A DNA stretch of 45,439 bases from contig LFSQ01000108.1 in the NCBI GenBank assembly GCA_001512785.1, forward strand, positions 1 to 45,439, given 5' to 3'. Within the stretch, counting starts at the first letter, position 1. Each line of letters starts with the position of its first letter. Below are positions 10,742 to 18,651 of the stretch, piece by piece. The stretch is from Syntrophomonas sp. DTU019 (GTDB lineage Bacteria; Bacillota; Syntrophomonadia; Syntrophomonadales; Syntrophomonadaceae). Under the pieces are notes generated by a model. That model was given only the letters and a program-made list of their open reading frames with translations. It did not search any database and was not told the origin of the DNA. The position numbers and the translations under genes are program-made.

Positions 10742-10807
10742 CCGCTGGCAGACTGATTAAACACAGTCTTTGGTAACACCAAATCTGTGTTTGTAAGCTG
10801 CCAGCGG
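10742..10807. repeat. Three-tier nested hairpin over the 3' end of the membrane-protein gene
   Basis: Three successive perfect pairings share one axis: CCGCTGGCAG (10742-10751) with 10798-10807, AAACACAG (10759-10766) with 10785-10792, and TTTGGT (10769-10774) with 10778-10783. That gives 24 pairs with small internal loops. It covers the last ~17 codons and the stop of the upstream gene and abuts the hairpin at 10660-10734. Confidence 0.6.
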
Positions 10808-11212
10808 ATTTATTGTGCTGCTGAACAGCCAAACCCATATAGAGAGTATGGGCGCACTGATCAAAAGCCCGTAATAATAAGCCGGATAAGCCAAGCTGCT
10901 GGATTTGAACAGGGACAACCAGGGCAAAAGCGGGGTCATCCAGAAGCTGAGGATAAAGATGGCGTAATTGTATATCTGCCCGGGGTTCCAGCCGGTAAGC
11001 AGAATAACAGTCATCAAATACGCGGGAAGCTGCCATAACAAGGCTGCCATAATACGCTGACCCAGCTGGCACCCTTGCAGGGACAAAGCCTCCCGGCTGA
11101 TTATGATAAGGTACAGCACAGCGGCAATGTATTCCATTCCCGCCCAGTAGCTGAACAGCCATACCGTAAACCAGGCGAAAACATGTATCCATAACAGGCG
11201 CAATGCTACCAC
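10757..11212 (-). CDS. Hydrophobic membrane protein, YiiX-like neighbour
   Basis: 151 residues from GTG 11212. The protein is strongly hydrophobic with about four membrane segments: HVFAWFTVWLFSYWAG, YIAAVLYLIII, PAYLMTVILLTGW and a C-terminal pair around YYYGLLISAPILSIWVWLF. No family was recognised. The start is placed at GTG 11212 because AGAGGTGGGG precedes it and it overlaps the stop of the YiiX-like gene by 7 bp, typical of coupled translation. A longer in-frame start at 11278 would lie fully inside the upstream gene. An alternative frame over the same DNA (10635-11192) has a much less protein-like composition. Confidence 0.6.
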   Translation of the reverse strand: MVALRLLWIHVFAWFTVWLFSYWAGMEYIAAVLYLIIISREALSLQGCQLGQRIMAALLWQLPAYLMTVILLTGWNPGQIYNYAIFILSFWMTPLLPWLSLFKSSSLAYPAYYYGLLISAPILSIWVWLFSSTINPLAAYKHRFGVTKDCV

Positions 11213-11817
11213 AGCTGCCCCACCTCTCTGATCACCTTGACGTAAGGGCTGTGGTAGAAGCTGTCCGGCGGCACCCACAGATCATGGTTGGGATCGAAAT
11301 CCACGCCCTGCAGCTGATAAGCCTTCCACATAATCTTGCTGCAGTTCCAGGTGTTATGCCCGGATTTAAAGGCCACCGGATAGAATAGCTCCCCCAGCTG
11401 TTCTGTGGCATAAGCCACCGCTGCCTGTTTTATCGCAGGGTCGACATCAACCCGCAGCAAACAGACCTGTGGATATTCACGGAAATGCTCAATTGATTGC
11501 AGGGTTATGCCCAGGTCAGCATAGCCTTCAATGATCTGACCCGAGCCTACATATAAGGCGGCATGGGAATAGCGCCCGTAGGCACAGTGAGGATATGCTC
11601 CCAGGACAATATCCCCCGGTTCCAGGCCTTCAAAGGAAATGTCGTTATTACAGGGCACAGGGTTTCCATATCCGATATTGCCTGACAATGCGCTTTTGAT
11701 ATAAGCATGGGTAACCCCTTCAGGATGAAAAATAATGCTGTGATTATTGGCTATAATAACTATTGCTGCTATCAATGTCAGCAGCGGGAAAATCAACAGG
11801 TTAAACGGCTGCTTCAT
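11206..11817 (-). CDS. YiiX/YebB-like NlpC/P60-fold (permuted papain) hydrolase
   Basis: 203 residues. An N-terminal hydrophobic segment (~6-25) should anchor or export the protein. The rest resembles the YiiX family: EPGDIVLGAYPHCAYGRYSHAALYVG (~70-95; described by its GDIVL and YSHAAL motifs) contains the likely catalytic His, and NTWNCSKIMWKAYQ (~165-178) contains the Cys in the circularly permuted arrangement. The family includes predicted amidases or proteases acting on lipids or peptidoglycan; the substrate here is unknown. A start ATG at 11817 follows GGAG. The gene overlaps the next membrane-protein gene, suggesting they act together. Confidence 0.75.
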   Translation of the reverse strand: MKQPFNLLIFPLLTLIAAIVIIANNHSIIFHPEGVTHAYIKSALSGNIGYGNPVPCNNDISFEGLEPGDIVLGAYPHCAYGRYSHAALYVGSGQIIEGYADLGITLQSIEHFREYPQVCLLRVDVDPAIKQAAVAYATEQLGELFYPVAFKSGHNTWNCSKIMWKAYQLQGVDFDPNHDLWVPPDSFYHSPYVKVIREVGQLW

Positions 11818-12513: not shown

Positions 12514-13230
12514 ATGCGGGCGATTATAAGAAAGCTGGATAAGCAGCAGGAGTTGAACACCGAAGAATATCAAAGTCTGATGGGCTATATACAGCAGCTG
12601 CGCATGCAATCATTGCCGTCTTATCAGGTTTTCTATCAGCGCTACGCCGGTGTGCTCTATAAGCAGTATTCCACCTATCTGCCGGAATTTGAATATACAC
12701 TGGGGGATGCAGTGGCTTTGCTGGCAGAGCAGCCGGAGCTGCTGCCTTTAGCCCTGCAGCGCCCGGTACAGTGGCAGCATTTTCCGCCCCCTTATCGCCC
12801 CTATTTACAGGCCTGTGCGCAAAACCGGCTCAAAGGGCAGCTGTTTTATGAGGTTGTCAGGCAGATGGCTGACAAACCGGAAAGCCCGGTCAGCCTGCCC
12901 CGCCCCCGGGAGGCTGAGGTGGTTATGCTGTTTGAGGATCAAAACCCTTTCAAGGAACGGGGATTAAAAGCCCATTTTGATCGTTTGAGCCGTTTTACCT
13001 TTATTACCCGGCTGCAGAGTGTGCGCTATCTGACCCGGCATAAGGCCAAGCAGGACCGCGTGGAGGTTCTGGCCCCGGACCGTTTGGGGGGCATATTTAC
13101 CAATAAGGAAAAATCGATATATTACTATATTTACCTGACCGAGTCCGTAGAGGCCAGGGCCCGGAAAGCCTGTGCCCTGCTAAATCTGGCTCTTTATGGG
13201 CAGGTAATGGGAGATGGTCATGATATTTAA
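12514..13230 (+). CDS. Unrecognised protein 1 of the Hsp70-like operon
   Basis: 238 residues, no family recognised. The N-terminal half is helical with many Tyr, Leu and Gln. A Pro-rich stretch (PVSLPRPRE, ~130) leads into a C-terminal half rich in basic residues and aromatic beta-like segments (SIYYYIYLTE, ~207-216). No signal peptide, membrane segment or Cys-rich motif is seen, so it should be cytoplasmic. ATG follows GAGGG. It opens a four-gene plus-strand operon and overlaps gene 2 by 11 bp. The AT-rich region upstream has a possible -10 TACAAT at 12482 but no good -35. Confidence 0.7.
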   Translation: MRAIIRKLDKQQELNTEEYQSLMGYIQQLRMQSLPSYQVFYQRYAGVLYKQYSTYLPEFEYTLGDAVALLAEQPELLPLALQRPVQWQHFPPPYRPYLQACAQNRLKGQLFYEVVRQMADKPESPVSLPRPREAEVVMLFEDQNPFKERGLKAHFDRLSRFTFITRLQSVRYLTRHKAKQDRVEVLAPDRLGGIFTNKEKSIYYYIYLTESVEARARKACALLNLALYGQVMGDGHDI

Positions 13231-14677
13231 CAGCGGGCTTGCGGTTGACGCCGGTCTATTCGACATATGGCAGCAAGAACTGGCAGAACGCCACCAAATC
13301 CGGTATTCCGAGCTAAATCCGGCTGACATGGTCATAAACCAGCCGGAAGAGGCGGAACTGCTGGTAAGGGCCTGGTTTTATAACGGCAGGAGCCGGGATT
13401 TATACATAGCCTTATTCCACAACCTGCACAAGATGGCGATTATTAAATGGCTGGTTCAGTCGCCAGCGGCGATGATCCAGGGCTTTCTCCAATTCCTGCC
13501 CGGGTATATTCTGATCTATCGCCCCCGCCCGGTTCAGCTGCAGTTTTTAATCCATCTGTACAGCGATGATCTGGCTGCTTATTACCCGGCTATAGCCAAA
13601 AGCCTGGATAAAGAGTCCTGTAAATACCTGCTGTCCCGTTCTGCCAATGCCAGCCTGCGCCGGCTGTTAAAGACCGCTCTTCAGACCGCAGGCCCGGAAC
13701 ATGGTCTGGCCTGCTTCGGACTGGACCCCAAGCGCCTGTCTGCGCAGGATTTTGCAGGCTTATACGGCAAAAAAAACCAAAACCTGCTTAAAGCCCTGGA
13801 CTCAGTGGCCGACTGTGTCCGCTACCGCTTGAAGCATGTTTACGGCATCGGTCCTTTTATGAATAACCTGGCAGCCGTTGAAGCTGTTTTTGCAAGCGGT
13901 TTGGTAATTGACAGCCTGGCTATTCTATTGGATCTCTATGAAGACTATGCGGAAAAACCAAATCTGGCCGGAGTACTCGAGGATGAACAAGCAGCCAGGC
14001 GTTTTGCCCGGGTTTTGCGCAAAGTCGCTCCTGTTTATGCCATGCTGGAACATGCCCCGGCGGCTGCGGCGGCTTATAGAGCCCTGCATGAGCGTTATTT
14101 TCCCGGTATCCCCCCAAGCGCTTCTGCATATGCCAGCCTTGAATTGATGGATCAGCTTTTATCCACCAACCAGTCTGTTGCCGCGGTTAAAGCGGCTGTG
14201 AAGCTGTGGCACCGGCAAATCCTGCTTGAAGGCTACGGTGAACATGAGCCTTTGTTTAACCATAGTGACCATTTAGATATGCTGGCGCTGAAAACCCTGG
14301 TCAACGACTTAAGGCTATCCCAGCCGCAAGAGGCTTTCACCTTGATCCTGGCGGCTCTCTGGCTCGATCAGCACCATGCTTTAGGCCTGGATTCCGCAAA
14401 TGCCCTGTGGATTTTTACTCAATGCCGGGATTTCTGGTGCTGGGTTCCCAGTCAGGTGTTTTTCAATGCCCAAATCTGGTCCCAATTGCGCACAATGCTG
14501 CCGGAGGAGAGCAGGCAGGAGGGGGATAGGTTATTAACCCGTATACAAGAGATGCAGGACGATGTTTTGCAGTCTGATCTAAAACAGCGGCCCGATCTGT
14601 TTAAACAGCCCCAGAGGATAATTGAGCGCCACATCCTGGCAGGGGCTTTTTTGGGGGTGTTTGGCAATGAATGCTGA
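13220..14677 (+). CDS. Unrecognised alpha-helical protein 2 of the Hsp70-like operon
   Basis: 485 residues, predicted mostly helical from the spacing of Leu and Ala, with no recognised domain. The start is put at ATG 13220 rather than ATG 13214 because GGGAG is 6 bp upstream of the former and directly abuts the latter. It overlaps gene 1 by 11 bp and gene 3 by 11 bp. No membrane segment is evident. It could be a scaffold with helical repeats, but no periodic repeat is clear by eye. The tight coupling with the ATPase gene is the only functional clue. Confidence 0.7.
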   Translation: MIFNSGLAVDAGLFDIWQQELAERHQIRYSELNPADMVINQPEEAELLVRAWFYNGRSRDLYIALFHNLHKMAIIKWLVQSPAAMIQGFLQFLPGYILIYRPRPVQLQFLIHLYSDDLAAYYPAIAKSLDKESCKYLLSRSANASLRRLLKTALQTAGPEHGLACFGLDPKRLSAQDFAGLYGKKNQNLLKALDSVADCVRYRLKHVYGIGPFMNNLAAVEAVFASGLVIDSLAILLDLYEDYAEKPNLAGVLEDEQAARRFARVLRKVAPVYAMLEHAPAAAAAYRALHERYFPGIPPSASAYASLELMDQLLSTNQSVAAVKAAVKLWHRQILLEGYGEHEPLFNHSDHLDMLALKTLVNDLRLSQPQEAFTLILAALWLDQHHALGLDSANALWIFTQCRDFWCWVPSQVFFNAQIWSQLRTMLPEESRQEGDRLLTRIQEMQDDVLQSDLKQRPDLFKQPQRIIERHILAGAFLGVFGNEC

Positions 14678-16223
14678 TAAACTGGATACCAACGCCTATG
14701 GCTTGATGCTGGAAGAGCTGTTGCAGCGGCTTAAGCAGGAGATCGATTCTCACTTCGATATAAATACGGCCCCAACCGATTCCGAATTGGACCAGTATAT
14801 ACTGAAAATCAACAGCTTCTATTATGAGGGTTTTCTCAAGTACTACCTGCCCCAATTTGAACAGCGCTGGCATGCTGAAGCCAGGGAACTGCTGATGCTC
14901 GCCCAGCAGCAGCAAGTACTGGAAACCAACATCATGTCCACACTCAAACGCTATACTCGTTTACATAATCTCTTAAAGACCCTCCTGACAGGTCTGACTG
15001 CCTTTTGCCAGGACACTGATTATGAAATGCACCTTATACAGGAAGAAATTACCCGTCAGGGCAGCGAACTGCTCTCCGCTTTAAGTGACTTGCACCATCA
15101 ATTGAACTCGTTAAAGGACTTCTTAACATCGCTGCTGCCTTACCTCAAAGATGATGAGTTGACGCAATATATTGGCGATTATCCCGCATACATCGAAGTT
15201 TTCCAGCTTTTTGGCTCAAGTGCTGCAGAGTCTGCCATCGGTTCTCACAAATTGGCTTTGGCTATCAGCGAATTAAGCTACCTGATCAATTTGGCCGGTA
15301 ATACAGCCATGGCTGACCAAAAGCAGCGCTTGAAAGCAACAGAGGAAATGCAGCGCCGTATTGACCTGCTCAAGGATGAGGTCGATAGTGATGATCCCTT
15401 CAACTCATGGATAAGCCGGCACCTGGCATCCGAATTGAGCCTTTATGCTGCGGCTTTGTCAGACTCTATGGCTTCACCAGACCTGCAGGCTTTGATACTC
15501 AAGCGCTTACAGGGATGGCGCAAAACCCTGCAGGTAATAAATAGCTGCGGCTCGAAGCTGTTACAACCTGATGCGCTTTACGGCCTGATCTGCCTGTCCG
15601 CAGAGAATGCACAGGAAGCCCTGCGGGATATAGAGTTTTCCATAGAGCAGTTGCATAAGATCATCGCCGGCCTCGAAGCAAACCCGGAACCCAGTTACAA
15701 GACCTTGGTGCAGGTCAGGGAATGGCTGGCTTTTTGGGGGCCTTTTTTGCGCAGTATGAGCGGGGAAGAGGAAATGCGCCGGGTGCCCCGGTTAAACAGC
15801 CTGCTCCATCAGGTCAAAGTGGGAATTTCTTTTTTGTCCAATCAGCTCAGCATGATTGAAACCTCACGCCGCCGTTCGGCTTACAATCAGGATTACGTAG
15901 GGCGCATGCGGGATCTGGCAGCGACTCAGCTGGGAGTGCTGATGCAGTTGAAAGCCGACCTTGACCGCCTGCTGGCCCCGCGCAACGTGTCGCGCACCTG
16001 GAAGGATATGGGGGTGCGCCTTACCAAAATACCCCTGCAAAAAGGCGAGGTATTCCCTGAGGAGCATATCAGGCTTCTCACTCAGGCACACTGGGATGCC
16101 CGCCTGGACCCGGAGCAAGCTGACTATACCATCGTTCATGAAGAAGGCGACTTGTTCATAATTCAGGTTTTGAACGAAGAACAGGTGGAAATACCTTATA
16201 TGGTATTGACCCGGAGAGCCTAA
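14667..16223 (+). CDS. Unrecognised coiled-coil-rich protein 3 of the Hsp70-like operon
   Basis: 518 residues. Long heptad-like helices fill residues ~1-430, with repeated LxxLxxxL spacing (for example LHHQLNSLKDFLTSLLPYL, ~147-165). A compact, more mixed C-terminal domain (~435-518) ends in short beta-like segments (DLFIIQVLNEEQVEIPYMVL). The order coiled coil then small beta head is reminiscent of GrpE, the Hsp70 exchange factor, but no GrpE signature is clear. ATG 14667 follows GGGGGTG and lies inside the end of gene 2. The Hsp70-like gene starts 19 bp downstream. Confidence 0.7.
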   Translation: MNADKLDTNAYGLMLEELLQRLKQEIDSHFDINTAPTDSELDQYILKINSFYYEGFLKYYLPQFEQRWHAEARELLMLAQQQQVLETNIMSTLKRYTRLHNLLKTLLTGLTAFCQDTDYEMHLIQEEITRQGSELLSALSDLHHQLNSLKDFLTSLLPYLKDDELTQYIGDYPAYIEVFQLFGSSAAESAIGSHKLALAISELSYLINLAGNTAMADQKQRLKATEEMQRRIDLLKDEVDSDDPFNSWISRHLASELSLYAAALSDSMASPDLQALILKRLQGWRKTLQVINSCGSKLLQPDALYGLICLSAENAQEALRDIEFSIEQLHKIIAGLEANPEPSYKTLVQVREWLAFWGPFLRSMSGEEEMRRVPRLNSLLHQVKVGISFLSNQLSMIETSRRRSAYNQDYVGRMRDLAATQLGVLMQLKADLDRLLAPRNVSRTWKDMGVRLTKIPLQKGEVFPEEHIRLLTQAHWDARLDPEQADYTIVHEEGDLFIIQVLNEEQVEIPYMVLTRRA

Positions 16224-16242
16224 ACATCAGGGGGTTTGGCGA

Positions 16243-17646
16243 ATGCGGCTCGGCATTGATTTTGGCACAGCATATACCAGGATGGCAGCACTGACAGCAG
16301 ACGGATTGGTTTATTCCGGCTCCGCTTGGCCGGGACCCATCCCCGGCATCCTGGCCTGCTGTCCTGCTACGGGCCAAATATACTTCGGTACGGAGGCTAA
16401 TGAGGTTGACCGGAATGAGGTTCTGGTCTGGCCTAATTTTATATTGGACCTGTGGCAAAACCCTGAAACAGTCATAGGAAATCTGGATTTCGAAAAAATC
16501 ATGGCGGCTTATTTGGCTTTTTTAAAACAGCAAATACCGCTGGGTTCAGGCCAAGCCATTGAAGCCGTAACCCTGTCCATGCCCGCTTATTGCAGCATAA
16601 ATACCCGGAACCGGCTGTATAACGCTTTGCATCAGGTATTTGCCGATGCAGCCATCAGTTTGCTTCCCGAACCGCTTTCCATCTTATTAGGGTATCAGGC
16701 CCTGCATCCTCAACAGGAATTGGCAGGTGATATTCTGCTCATAGACTTTGGGGATGGCCGGGTTAGTTTCAGCATTATGAGTTTAGTCTCAAACAGGAGA
16801 GAGCTGATTTTGGAAACACAGTTGGAGATGGACCAGGGCATTGAGCTGGACAGCTTTGTGCATGCTGTTTTAGGTCCCCATGCTCAAGCCCTGGGCTTAA
16901 GTGGTAAAAAGGGCTGGAGATTCAATTGTATTATTTTAGCGGGAGGAGCTTCCCATACCCCGGAAGTCTTGCCGCAGATAAAGGCCCTGTTTCCTGATGT
17001 GCCGCTTTTTCAGGGTCAGCCCGATCAGCCTTATACAGCTGTCGGCAATTGCCTGTGGGCGACCAGTGGACTGCAATTGTTCACCATCTGCCCGTTCCAG
17101 TTTTATATTGCCAGGAAAAACCCCCAGGCAGAGGAGGGTTATGAGTTAGAGCCCATACCTTTTGACACCATCAACCTGGAATTGGATATTACCAGGACTT
17201 ACCGCATTTTCTCCCTGCCGGTAACTTCGCCCTATAACCTGGCCAAAAATCCCGGCGATGTTGAGATAAAGATATATGCTGCTGATGAAGCCCCGGGAAG
17301 ATCGCCGGAGACACTGCCTCCCCGGGAACTGGTCCTGCACTGGGAGCAAGCCGATTACAACGGTGCTGAAGTTGTGCATATTCATTATGATTTGGCCAGT
17401 TCACAACTCTTTGTGAATTTCTCTGATAACCTCCTCGCTTCTCCGGAGGTAGAGCTCTTCCACGGCTGGAAGGCCAGGCAACTCGCTCAGTCACTGTGGC
17501 TGTCAGATTATAAACATGTTGACAAAGACCTGCTAAAAGCCCTGCAGAAGCAGCTGCAAAGCAATCCAGGCGAAAGTGCTTATAACAATCAGCTTATGAC
17601 TACTTACTACAAACTGCTCTGCGTGCTGCAGATATTAAACCCCTAA
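16243..17646 (+). CDS. Hsp70/actin-fold ATPase, compact divergent form
   Basis: 467 residues. The N-terminus has the phosphate-1 loop GIDFGTAYTRMA (4-15). ISLLPEPLSILLGY (138-151) matches the connect-1 region with its Glu (143). ILLIDFGDGRVSF (164-176) is phosphate-2, and CIILAGGASHTPEV (229-242) is the adenosine motif. Phosphate-2 to adenosine is only ~62 residues, against ~140 in DnaK, so subdomain IIB appears absent. Residues ~280-467 are not a clear DnaK substrate domain, though the region has beta-rich stretches and a helical end (LLKALQKQLQ). It probably binds ATP and works with the three preceding proteins. No DnaJ or canonical GrpE is nearby, so a housekeeping chaperone role is unlikely. 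Confidence 0.8.
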   Translation: MRLGIDFGTAYTRMAALTADGLVYSGSAWPGPIPGILACCPATGQIYFGTEANEVDRNEVLVWPNFILDLWQNPETVIGNLDFEKIMAAYLAFLKQQIPLGSGQAIEAVTLSMPAYCSINTRNRLYNALHQVFADAAISLLPEPLSILLGYQALHPQQELAGDILLIDFGDGRVSFSIMSLVSNRRELILETQLEMDQGIELDSFVHAVLGPHAQALGLSGKKGWRFNCIILAGGASHTPEVLPQIKALFPDVPLFQGQPDQPYTAVGNCLWATSGLQLFTICPFQFYIARKNPQAEEGYELEPIPFDTINLELDITRTYRIFSLPVTSPYNLAKNPGDVEIKIYAADEAPGRSPETLPPRELVLHWEQADYNGAEVVHIHYDLASSQLFVNFSDNLLASPEVELFHGWKARQLAQSLWLSDYKHVDKDLLKALQKQLQSNPGESAYNNQLMTTYYKLLCVLQILNP

Positions 17647-17710
17647 AAGGTATCGGCTATCACTGCGAAAATTCATTTGCTAAAAGGAAATATCAGGTGA
17701 TACCTTTTAG
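17643..17710. terminator. Inverted repeat after the Hsp70-like operon
   Basis: CTAAAAGGTATC (17643-17654) and its exact complement (17699-17710) flank 44 bp, starting within the stop codon region of the last gene. It may be a terminator with a long loop, although no U tract follows, or a repeat remnant. Confidence 0.35.
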
Positions 17711-17807: not shown

Positions 17808-18599
17808 TTACTCATGGGCTTTTCTATCATCACCGCCGGCATCTGCACCGGTATAGATCCGCACCGCATCGCGCAGGAAAAGCGCAGCCCCGGGCTGTAT
17901 TCTGTCATAGTAAGCGGTAAAGCGCTCATCATCGACATATAGCTGGGTTACTCCGGCATGGGCTTCCTTGCTGTATTGGCTCCAAAAATAACACAGCCAT
18001 TGACGGTGCAGGTCAGCGGCCTTCTGAGCCAATTCGCCTCCCGGGTCGCCTGCTGCCATAGCCGCCTTGAGGGTTTGGTTGAAAGCATGGCTCAGTTGCT
18101 CGACTTCAGCCCATTGCTCCGGGGTCATGTTCAATACTTTTCGATTGGCCGCATCGACCGCATCATGACCGTATTTTTCTCGGGCCTCAGCCCCATACTG
18201 CTGTTCATTTTCCGCTACCAATTTGCGTTTAAAGCCTTCAAACCTTTCCGCATCAGCCATAGCAATTCTCCCTTCTTTCATGGCGATAGTTTTTTCCACA
18301 TTGGCAATCAGCAGATTCAATTGCTCCCGCCTGTGAAGCAGTTCACGGTGGTGCTTTTTCAAGGCCGAAAGGCCGTCAAAAGCTGGATTCTCCAGAATGG
18401 CTTTGATCTGTTTAAGCCCCACCCCCAGTTCCCGGTAAAGCAATATGTGCTGCAGGCGGTCTAATTGGCCGGACTCGTAAATGCGATATCCAGCGGCATT
18501 GATTCGCGCCGGTTTGAGCAGACCAATCTGATCATAGTAGCGCAAGGTCCTGGGGCTGACACCGGCCATGCGGGCCAGTTCCTGAACCGTATATTCCAT
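17808..18599 (-). CDS. TipA-like MerR family multidrug-sensing regulator
   Basis: 263 residues. Residues ~1-70 are a MerR winged helix-turn-helix (YTVQELARMAGVSPRTLRYY), then a dimerising coiled coil (~75-110). The C-terminal half (~115-250) has the TipAS architecture, with FKRKLVAENEQQYG and the later WxxY-type segments, a domain that captures peptide antibiotics or other bulky ligands in TipA and Mta-type proteins. The start is ATG 18599, with AGGAG nine bases upstream; the extra ten residues of a longer frame lack a site. It probably activates its own promoter. Target genes beyond itself are not evident. Confidence 0.85.
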   Translation of the reverse strand: MEYTVQELARMAGVSPRTLRYYDQIGLLKPARINAAGYRIYESGQLDRLQHILLYRELGVGLKQIKAILENPAFDGLSALKKHHRELLHRREQLNLLIANVEKTIAMKEGRIAMADAERFEGFKRKLVAENEQQYGAEAREKYGHDAVDAANRKVLNMTPEQWAEVEQLSHAFNQTLKAAMAAGDPGGELAQKAADLHRQWLCYFWSQYSKEAHAGVTQLYVDDERFTAYYDRIQPGAALFLRDAVRIYTGADAGGDDRKAHE

Positions 18600-18620
18600 G
18601 TCCATCATCTCCTGATAAGA

Positions 18621-18651
18621 ACTATACACCTTTACGTTGCGTCAAAGTCAA
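18621..18651 (-). promoter_or_regulatory. MerR-type promoter with 19-bp spacer
   Basis: On the minus strand TTGACT (18651-18646), exactly 19 bp, then TATAGT (18626-18621). The spacer holds an imperfect dyad, CTTTGAC...GTAAAG. An overlong spacer with a central dyad is the hallmark of promoters that MerR-family proteins activate by DNA distortion, so autoregulation by the downstream TipA-like protein is likely. Confidence 0.7.

Follow-up and report, generated by a model that had tools for sequence, protein, structure and literature searches.

An undescribed four-gene operon of the Syntrophomonadales built around a divergent Hsp70 with an apparently eroded ATPase

Our comparative analysis identifies an undescribed four-gene operon, A-B-C-D, around a private and divergent Hsp70 of the known superfamily in syntrophic butyrate-oxidising bacteria of one order, the Syntrophomonadales. 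In the window, by which we mean the whole 45,439-nucleotide stretch of Syntrophomonas sp. DTU019 DNA that was analysed, the four genes are co-directional open reading frames (Table 1). The operon proposed in a first-pass annotation of this DNA was borne out, as all four frames are present and A to D are inherited together. The 11-bp overlaps it had described were confirmed between A and B (13220-13230) and between B and C (14667-14677), and a 19-bp gap without overlap separates C from D; median spacings in the operon family are 4 bp for A/B, -4 bp for B/C and 5 bp for C/D. No description of the operon was found in the open-access full-text literature, and A-D are not discussed in the main text of the S. 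wolfei proteomics papers, as judged by locus-tag range and chaperones. We consider it reasonably likely that the operon encodes a dedicated machine derived from Hsp70 and GrpE, which in the window has turned into an ATP-independent binder or scaffold.

Table 1. Features of the A-B-C-D operon in the window.
Feature	Position	Strand	Description
Operon A-B-C-D	12514..17646	+	four co-directional open reading frames
Gene A	12514..13230	+	238 aa; best conserved of the four subunits; C-terminal half basic; without known family
Gene B	13220..14677 (ATG at 13220)	+	485 aa; without known family; 11-bp overlap with A
Gene C	14667..16223 (ATG at 14667)	+	518 aa, acidic; long helices and C-terminal beta domain; probably GrpE-like; 11-bp overlap with B
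C-terminal GrpE-wing-like domain of C (residues 437-518)	15975..16220	+	
Gene D	16243..17646	+	467 aa; Hsp70-derived, ATPase eroded
Remnant NBD of D (lobe I and IIA)	16243..17070	+	retains phosphate-1, the Glu of LLPEP and the adenosine GG; has lost the catalytic lysine; phosphate-2 degraded
Site of the missing subdomain IIB in D	16828..16845	+	near residues 196-201; intact relatives have about 96 more residues here
SBD-beta-like domain of D (ICPFQFYIA ... IPFDTINLELD ...)	17086..17469	+	most strongly preserved part of D in the family
Short lid-like helical segment at the C-terminus of D	17500..17643	+	

The Hsp70 ancestry of D is most apparent in its relatives, the majority of which are 550-597 aa long and carry about 100 extra residues exactly at the gap of the window's D. 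On its own, the window's D reaches only sub-threshold Hsp70 scores in Pfam and NCBIfam; intact members of the family match PF00012 (7e-18) and DnaK models (1e-18), and profile comparison pairs them with BiP and DnaK chains of the PDB at an E-value of about 7e-27. An AlphaFold2 model of D from S. wolfei subsp. methylbutyratica (pLDDT 85, pTM 0.79) comprises an NBD, a beta-sandwich and C-terminal helices. The top Foldseek hits of this model are all full Hsp70s, aligned across both domains including SBD-beta (E 6e-28), and its matches include the Ssz1-containing RAC core (6sr6). The intact relatives have the architecture of the superfamily, an Hsp70-type NBD followed by SBD-beta and a helical lid, and are divergent full Hsp70s, an intact member scoring 65 bits against NCBIfam DnaK equivalog cut-offs of 648-822. 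The window's D lacks subdomain IIB, yet aligns with its relatives over the remainder at 30-60% identity. The first-pass annotation had described D as an Hsp70/actin-fold ATPase without IIB; the Hsp70 type and the absence of IIB stand, but the fold is not an anonymous one, since the intact relatives are full Hsp70s. As to whether D belongs to a known ordinary family, the Hsp70 superfamily in which it lies is known, but D is no ordinary member.

Tested against PilM, FtsA and Ppx models, D gave single weak matches to FtsA (7e-4) and Ppx (6e-3) and none to PilM; HSP70 models score best. An identity as PilM, FtsA, Ppx or MreB was rejected, which for the first three agrees with the first-pass annotation. 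That D could be an actin-like filament protein, or the ATPase of a PilM/FtsA-type membrane machine, is very improbable: MreB (1e-11) and BeeR (8e-8) models appear as secondary matches of some members, as expected from the shared fold, but HSP70 or DnaK models are the best matches and the modelled SBD-beta and lid are absent from actin-like filament proteins. A D-like match in genome G083 was set aside as an ordinary HscC-like Hsp70 beside a J-like protein.

Neither Pfam nor NCBIfam places A, B or C, and no credible Pfam match was obtained for these proteins singly or as families of 17-31 members. The earlier view of three proteins without a recognised family was borne out; A and B match nothing, and C is probably GrpE-like. 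"Small basic protein" suits the window's A (pI 9.2) but not the A family (median 7.7). No J-domain partner is encoded in the operon, A, B and C having neither a conserved HPD nor a Pfam DnaJ match. A and B represent two deeply conserved, wholly unannotated families in ecologically central syntrophic butyrate oxidisers.

The idea that the last 80 residues of C resemble a GrpE wing was recorded before the structure search. The predicted secondary structure of C agrees with a beta wing placed C-terminally of a long helix. A predicted C fragment (pTM 0.43) has one long helix together with a small beta domain, and in a Foldseek comparison of C with 350,542 PDB chains ranks 1 and 2 were GrpE (9a81 and 1dkg; E 0.048 and 0.066), the next hit following at 0.44. 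Alignment of C with GrpE by hhalign gave a probability of 3-5%, with 4 of 300 column shuffles scoring equally high and one unrelated family higher, and C has no Pfam GrpE match. On balance we lean towards a GrpE-like C, and the "coiled-coil protein" of the first-pass annotation, for which long helices are indeed predicted, would rather be such a protein with a beta wing. GrpE opens DnaK by an outward tilt of IIB (PMC8215388), so that the window's D, having no IIB, cannot undergo exchange of the classical kind. Moreover, the wing residues of C are invariant even in genomes with an IIB-less D or with no D (L093, L094), and C is therefore not simply the exchange factor of D. Taken together, these two points imply that C has another role too or acts on ordinary DnaK; the window's genome also encodes a normal DnaK and a normal GrpE.

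The ATPase of D is eroded in the window. The phosphate-1 motif GIDFGTAYT (residue 4) and the adenosine motif ILAGGAS (residue 231) support the earlier report of nucleotide motifs, but the third, phosphate-2, is degraded to IDFGDGRVS (residue 167) from the IDIGGGTxDFSF of intact relatives (DIGGGTxD to DFGDGRVS, GGGT to GDGR). The spacing from phosphate-2 to the adenosine motif is about 63 residues, in line with the roughly 62 reported. Furthermore, FFKLxLKR, whose lysine aligns with that of LSIKRR in DnaK, is replaced by NFILDLW, and the gap corresponds to residues 194-203 and 208-281 of the genome's own DnaK, i.e. to subdomain IIB. With the catalytic lysine gone, phosphate-2 broken and IIB missing, the working ATPase first envisaged is not upheld; the window's D is probably dead as an ATPase and unable to hydrolyse ATP. 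It retains phosphate-1, the phosphate-2 Asp, the Glu and the adenosine GG, and may still bind nucleotide.

Comparison of 36 D proteins indicates that the missing IIB is not the design of the family and that its loss goes with active-site decay. IIB is present in 22 of them, 21 of which keep phosphate-1, the lysine of FFKLxLKR, the Glu of LxxEP, GGGTxD and GG, and all 14 IIB-less proteins have a broken phosphate-2 and no lysine. Two further D proteins, those of G015 and G016, are degenerate beyond these 14. In the nearest relative, from the window's own genus (L055, 6236-7924), IIB is kept and the Glu, the GGGT of phosphate-2 and the lysine are lost, which suggests that catalysis was lost before IIB. 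Within the window's genus IIB may have been lost once or twice: equal junction lengths suggest one event, but on a tree of A, B and C combined L055, which has IIB, is the sister of the window (SH-aLRT 80). Across the same tree, eroded and intact D proteins interleave: the starred branches force at least three state changes and the whole tree four, and more than four would be implied if erosion is irreversible. Judged from these sequence comparisons, the same erosion has occurred several times in parallel, the exact number of losses being uncertain because long branches meet in the tree.

Eroded D proteins are nevertheless under purifying selection. Between the window and G003, dN/dS is about 0.24 for D, 0.14 for A, 0.17 for B and 0.13 for C. 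In eroded lineages only, SBD-beta overtakes the NBD in conservation, as the NBD falls to or below the level of the SBD. These data bear on the possibility that the genes are relics of a neutrally decaying system in which D is becoming a pseudogene, a very unlikely and already disfavoured reading. D is the fastest evolving of the four genes and is absent in L093 and L094, as decay would predict, but the reading frames of the operon genes are open in the genomes examined, the dN/dS values of all four genes are low, the SBD-beta core is 40-57% identical within eroded groups, and several lineages have shortened but intact frames. In the L093 and L094 lineage, A-B-C are kept and no D lies between C and the next gene.

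ATP-driven allostery is the defining property of Hsp70s. At one and the same operon position, D occurs intact, half-way eroded (L055), IIB-less, NBD-truncated or completely lost, and this series represents a natural experiment in which the contribution of an Hsp70 without its motor and the order of its dismantling become directly testable.

We propose that the four genes specify a dedicated machine of the Hsp70 type that is private to the Syntrophomonadales. D derives from a full Hsp70 with NBD, peptide-binding beta-sandwich and lid, and would have a GrpE-like partner in C, whose long helical arm would carry a GrpE-type beta wing at its end. The family-specific subunits A and B would serve as client or adaptor in place of a J-domain protein; their roles, the formation of a complex and a single dedicated client are inferred. 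The ancestral D might have used ATP to chaperone a single specific client or assembly. The ATPase was then probably lost in the window's genus and, in parallel, in several other lineages: the catalytic lysine and phosphate-2 went, and IIB either together with them or last. The remaining D would be an ATP-independent binding or scaffolding subunit working through its SBD-beta domain and its contacts with A-B-C. A bolder and less probable version of this proposal is an Hsp70 machine that does without a J-protein: A and B would stand in for the J-domain cochaperone, C would be a GrpE of increased size, and the ATP-driven cycle would have been converted, several times independently, into an ATP-independent scaffold, with loss of IIB after loss of catalysis.

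A different reading is that the window's D, like yeast Ssz1, is an Hsp70 that binds nucleotide without cycling; ATP would then be a structural cofactor that fixes the conformation of D in an A-B-C-D complex. The motif residues retained in the window's D (phosphate-1, the phosphate-2 Asp, the Glu and the adenosine GG) are consistent with it, and Ssz1, which was among the structural matches as 6sr6, provides a precedent: in the yeast RAC it binds substrate through its SBD and does not hydrolyse ATP (PMC7083937). However, IIB, which closes over the nucleotide, is absent from the window's D, and the other IIB-less members lack nearly all nucleotide motifs, so that binding is no requirement of the family. 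We regard this reading as a minority possibility. For the ATP-independent D that we favour, Ssz1 in RAC would still be the closest working analogy, as a non-hydrolysing Hsp70 retained for binding in a stable complex (a complex that is inferred in the case of D). It is an analogy and not a membership, as Ssz1 keeps its NBD, lacks the lid, is eukaryotic and has the J-protein Zuo1 as its partner; the two are unrelated as systems.

Prokaryotic Hsp70s were grouped in a 2021 review into DnaK, HscA and HscC (PMC8215388). The operon resembles the DnaK-GrpE system in that D has an NBD, SBD-beta and lid, C has a helical arm and a probable wing, and the GrpE-like gene directly precedes the Hsp70 gene, as in grpE-dnaK. 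In contrast, identity between D and the DnaK of the same genome is only about 25% for the NBD and 14% for the SBD, C has 518 aa compared with about 200 in GrpE, and the operon lacks a J-protein and has two unannotated subunits. HscA and HscC are, like D, dedicated Hsp70s with NBD deletions, but they keep most ATP-binding and hydrolysis residues and have J-protein partners (PMC8215388), whereas the window's D has lost IIB and the catalytic residues and its operon encodes no J-protein.

Searches of 121 relatives with D, C and B gave matches in 45, 49 and 50 genomes, respectively, which are practically the same genomes and belong to the Syntrophomonadaceae, the family of the window, and to a single sister family in the same order. 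With all four genes conserved in about 50 genomes, chance can be ruled out. Wherever contigs allow, gene order and strand are invariant in both families, and partial gene sets reflect contig ends or loss of D. Of 398 Bacillota genomes drawn, 10 matched the A profile, all within these two families, and the other 388 lacked A; a scan of GTDB species for A returned 42 loci, most of them titled Syntrophomonas or Syntrophomonadaceae and the rest unplaced Bacillota or Gelria bins. The expected co-occurrence was found, with A-D always together and never separate except for the occasional loss of D (L093, L094), but a system spread across the Clostridia was not, as the operon is confined to one order. 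Within that order it is not essential, because three well-assembled genomes of the same family (G008, G014, G032) lack it.

Several genomic contexts were considered and rejected. A mobile or defence element was discarded, as PADLOC and PHROG gave no match of note and no relatives of A were found in viral contigs. A PHA-granule system was also discarded: the distribution of class III PHA synthase differs from that of the operon, the window's genome having the operon and no match, and G014 and G019 having matches and no operon. Divergently transcribed from the operon in most loci are genes for a membrane-anchored peptidase C92-like protein (window 11206-11817, minus strand) and a small membrane protein (10757-11278, minus strand); the synteny is common, but a functional link was rejected, as genomes without A-D have the membrane protein as well. 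Directly upstream of A, on the same strand, there is often a gene for a polysaccharide deacetylase lipoprotein (L060, L068, L082, L085 and others), which is absent from this position in the window. Promoter and terminator scans of the operon were uninformative. A perfect 12-bp inverted repeat (17643-17654 and 17699-17710, with 44 nt between the arms) overlaps the stop codon of D and is possibly a terminator or regulatory element. Just downstream of D, the window encodes a MerR-family regulator with a TipAS antibiotic-recognition domain (17808-18629, minus strand).
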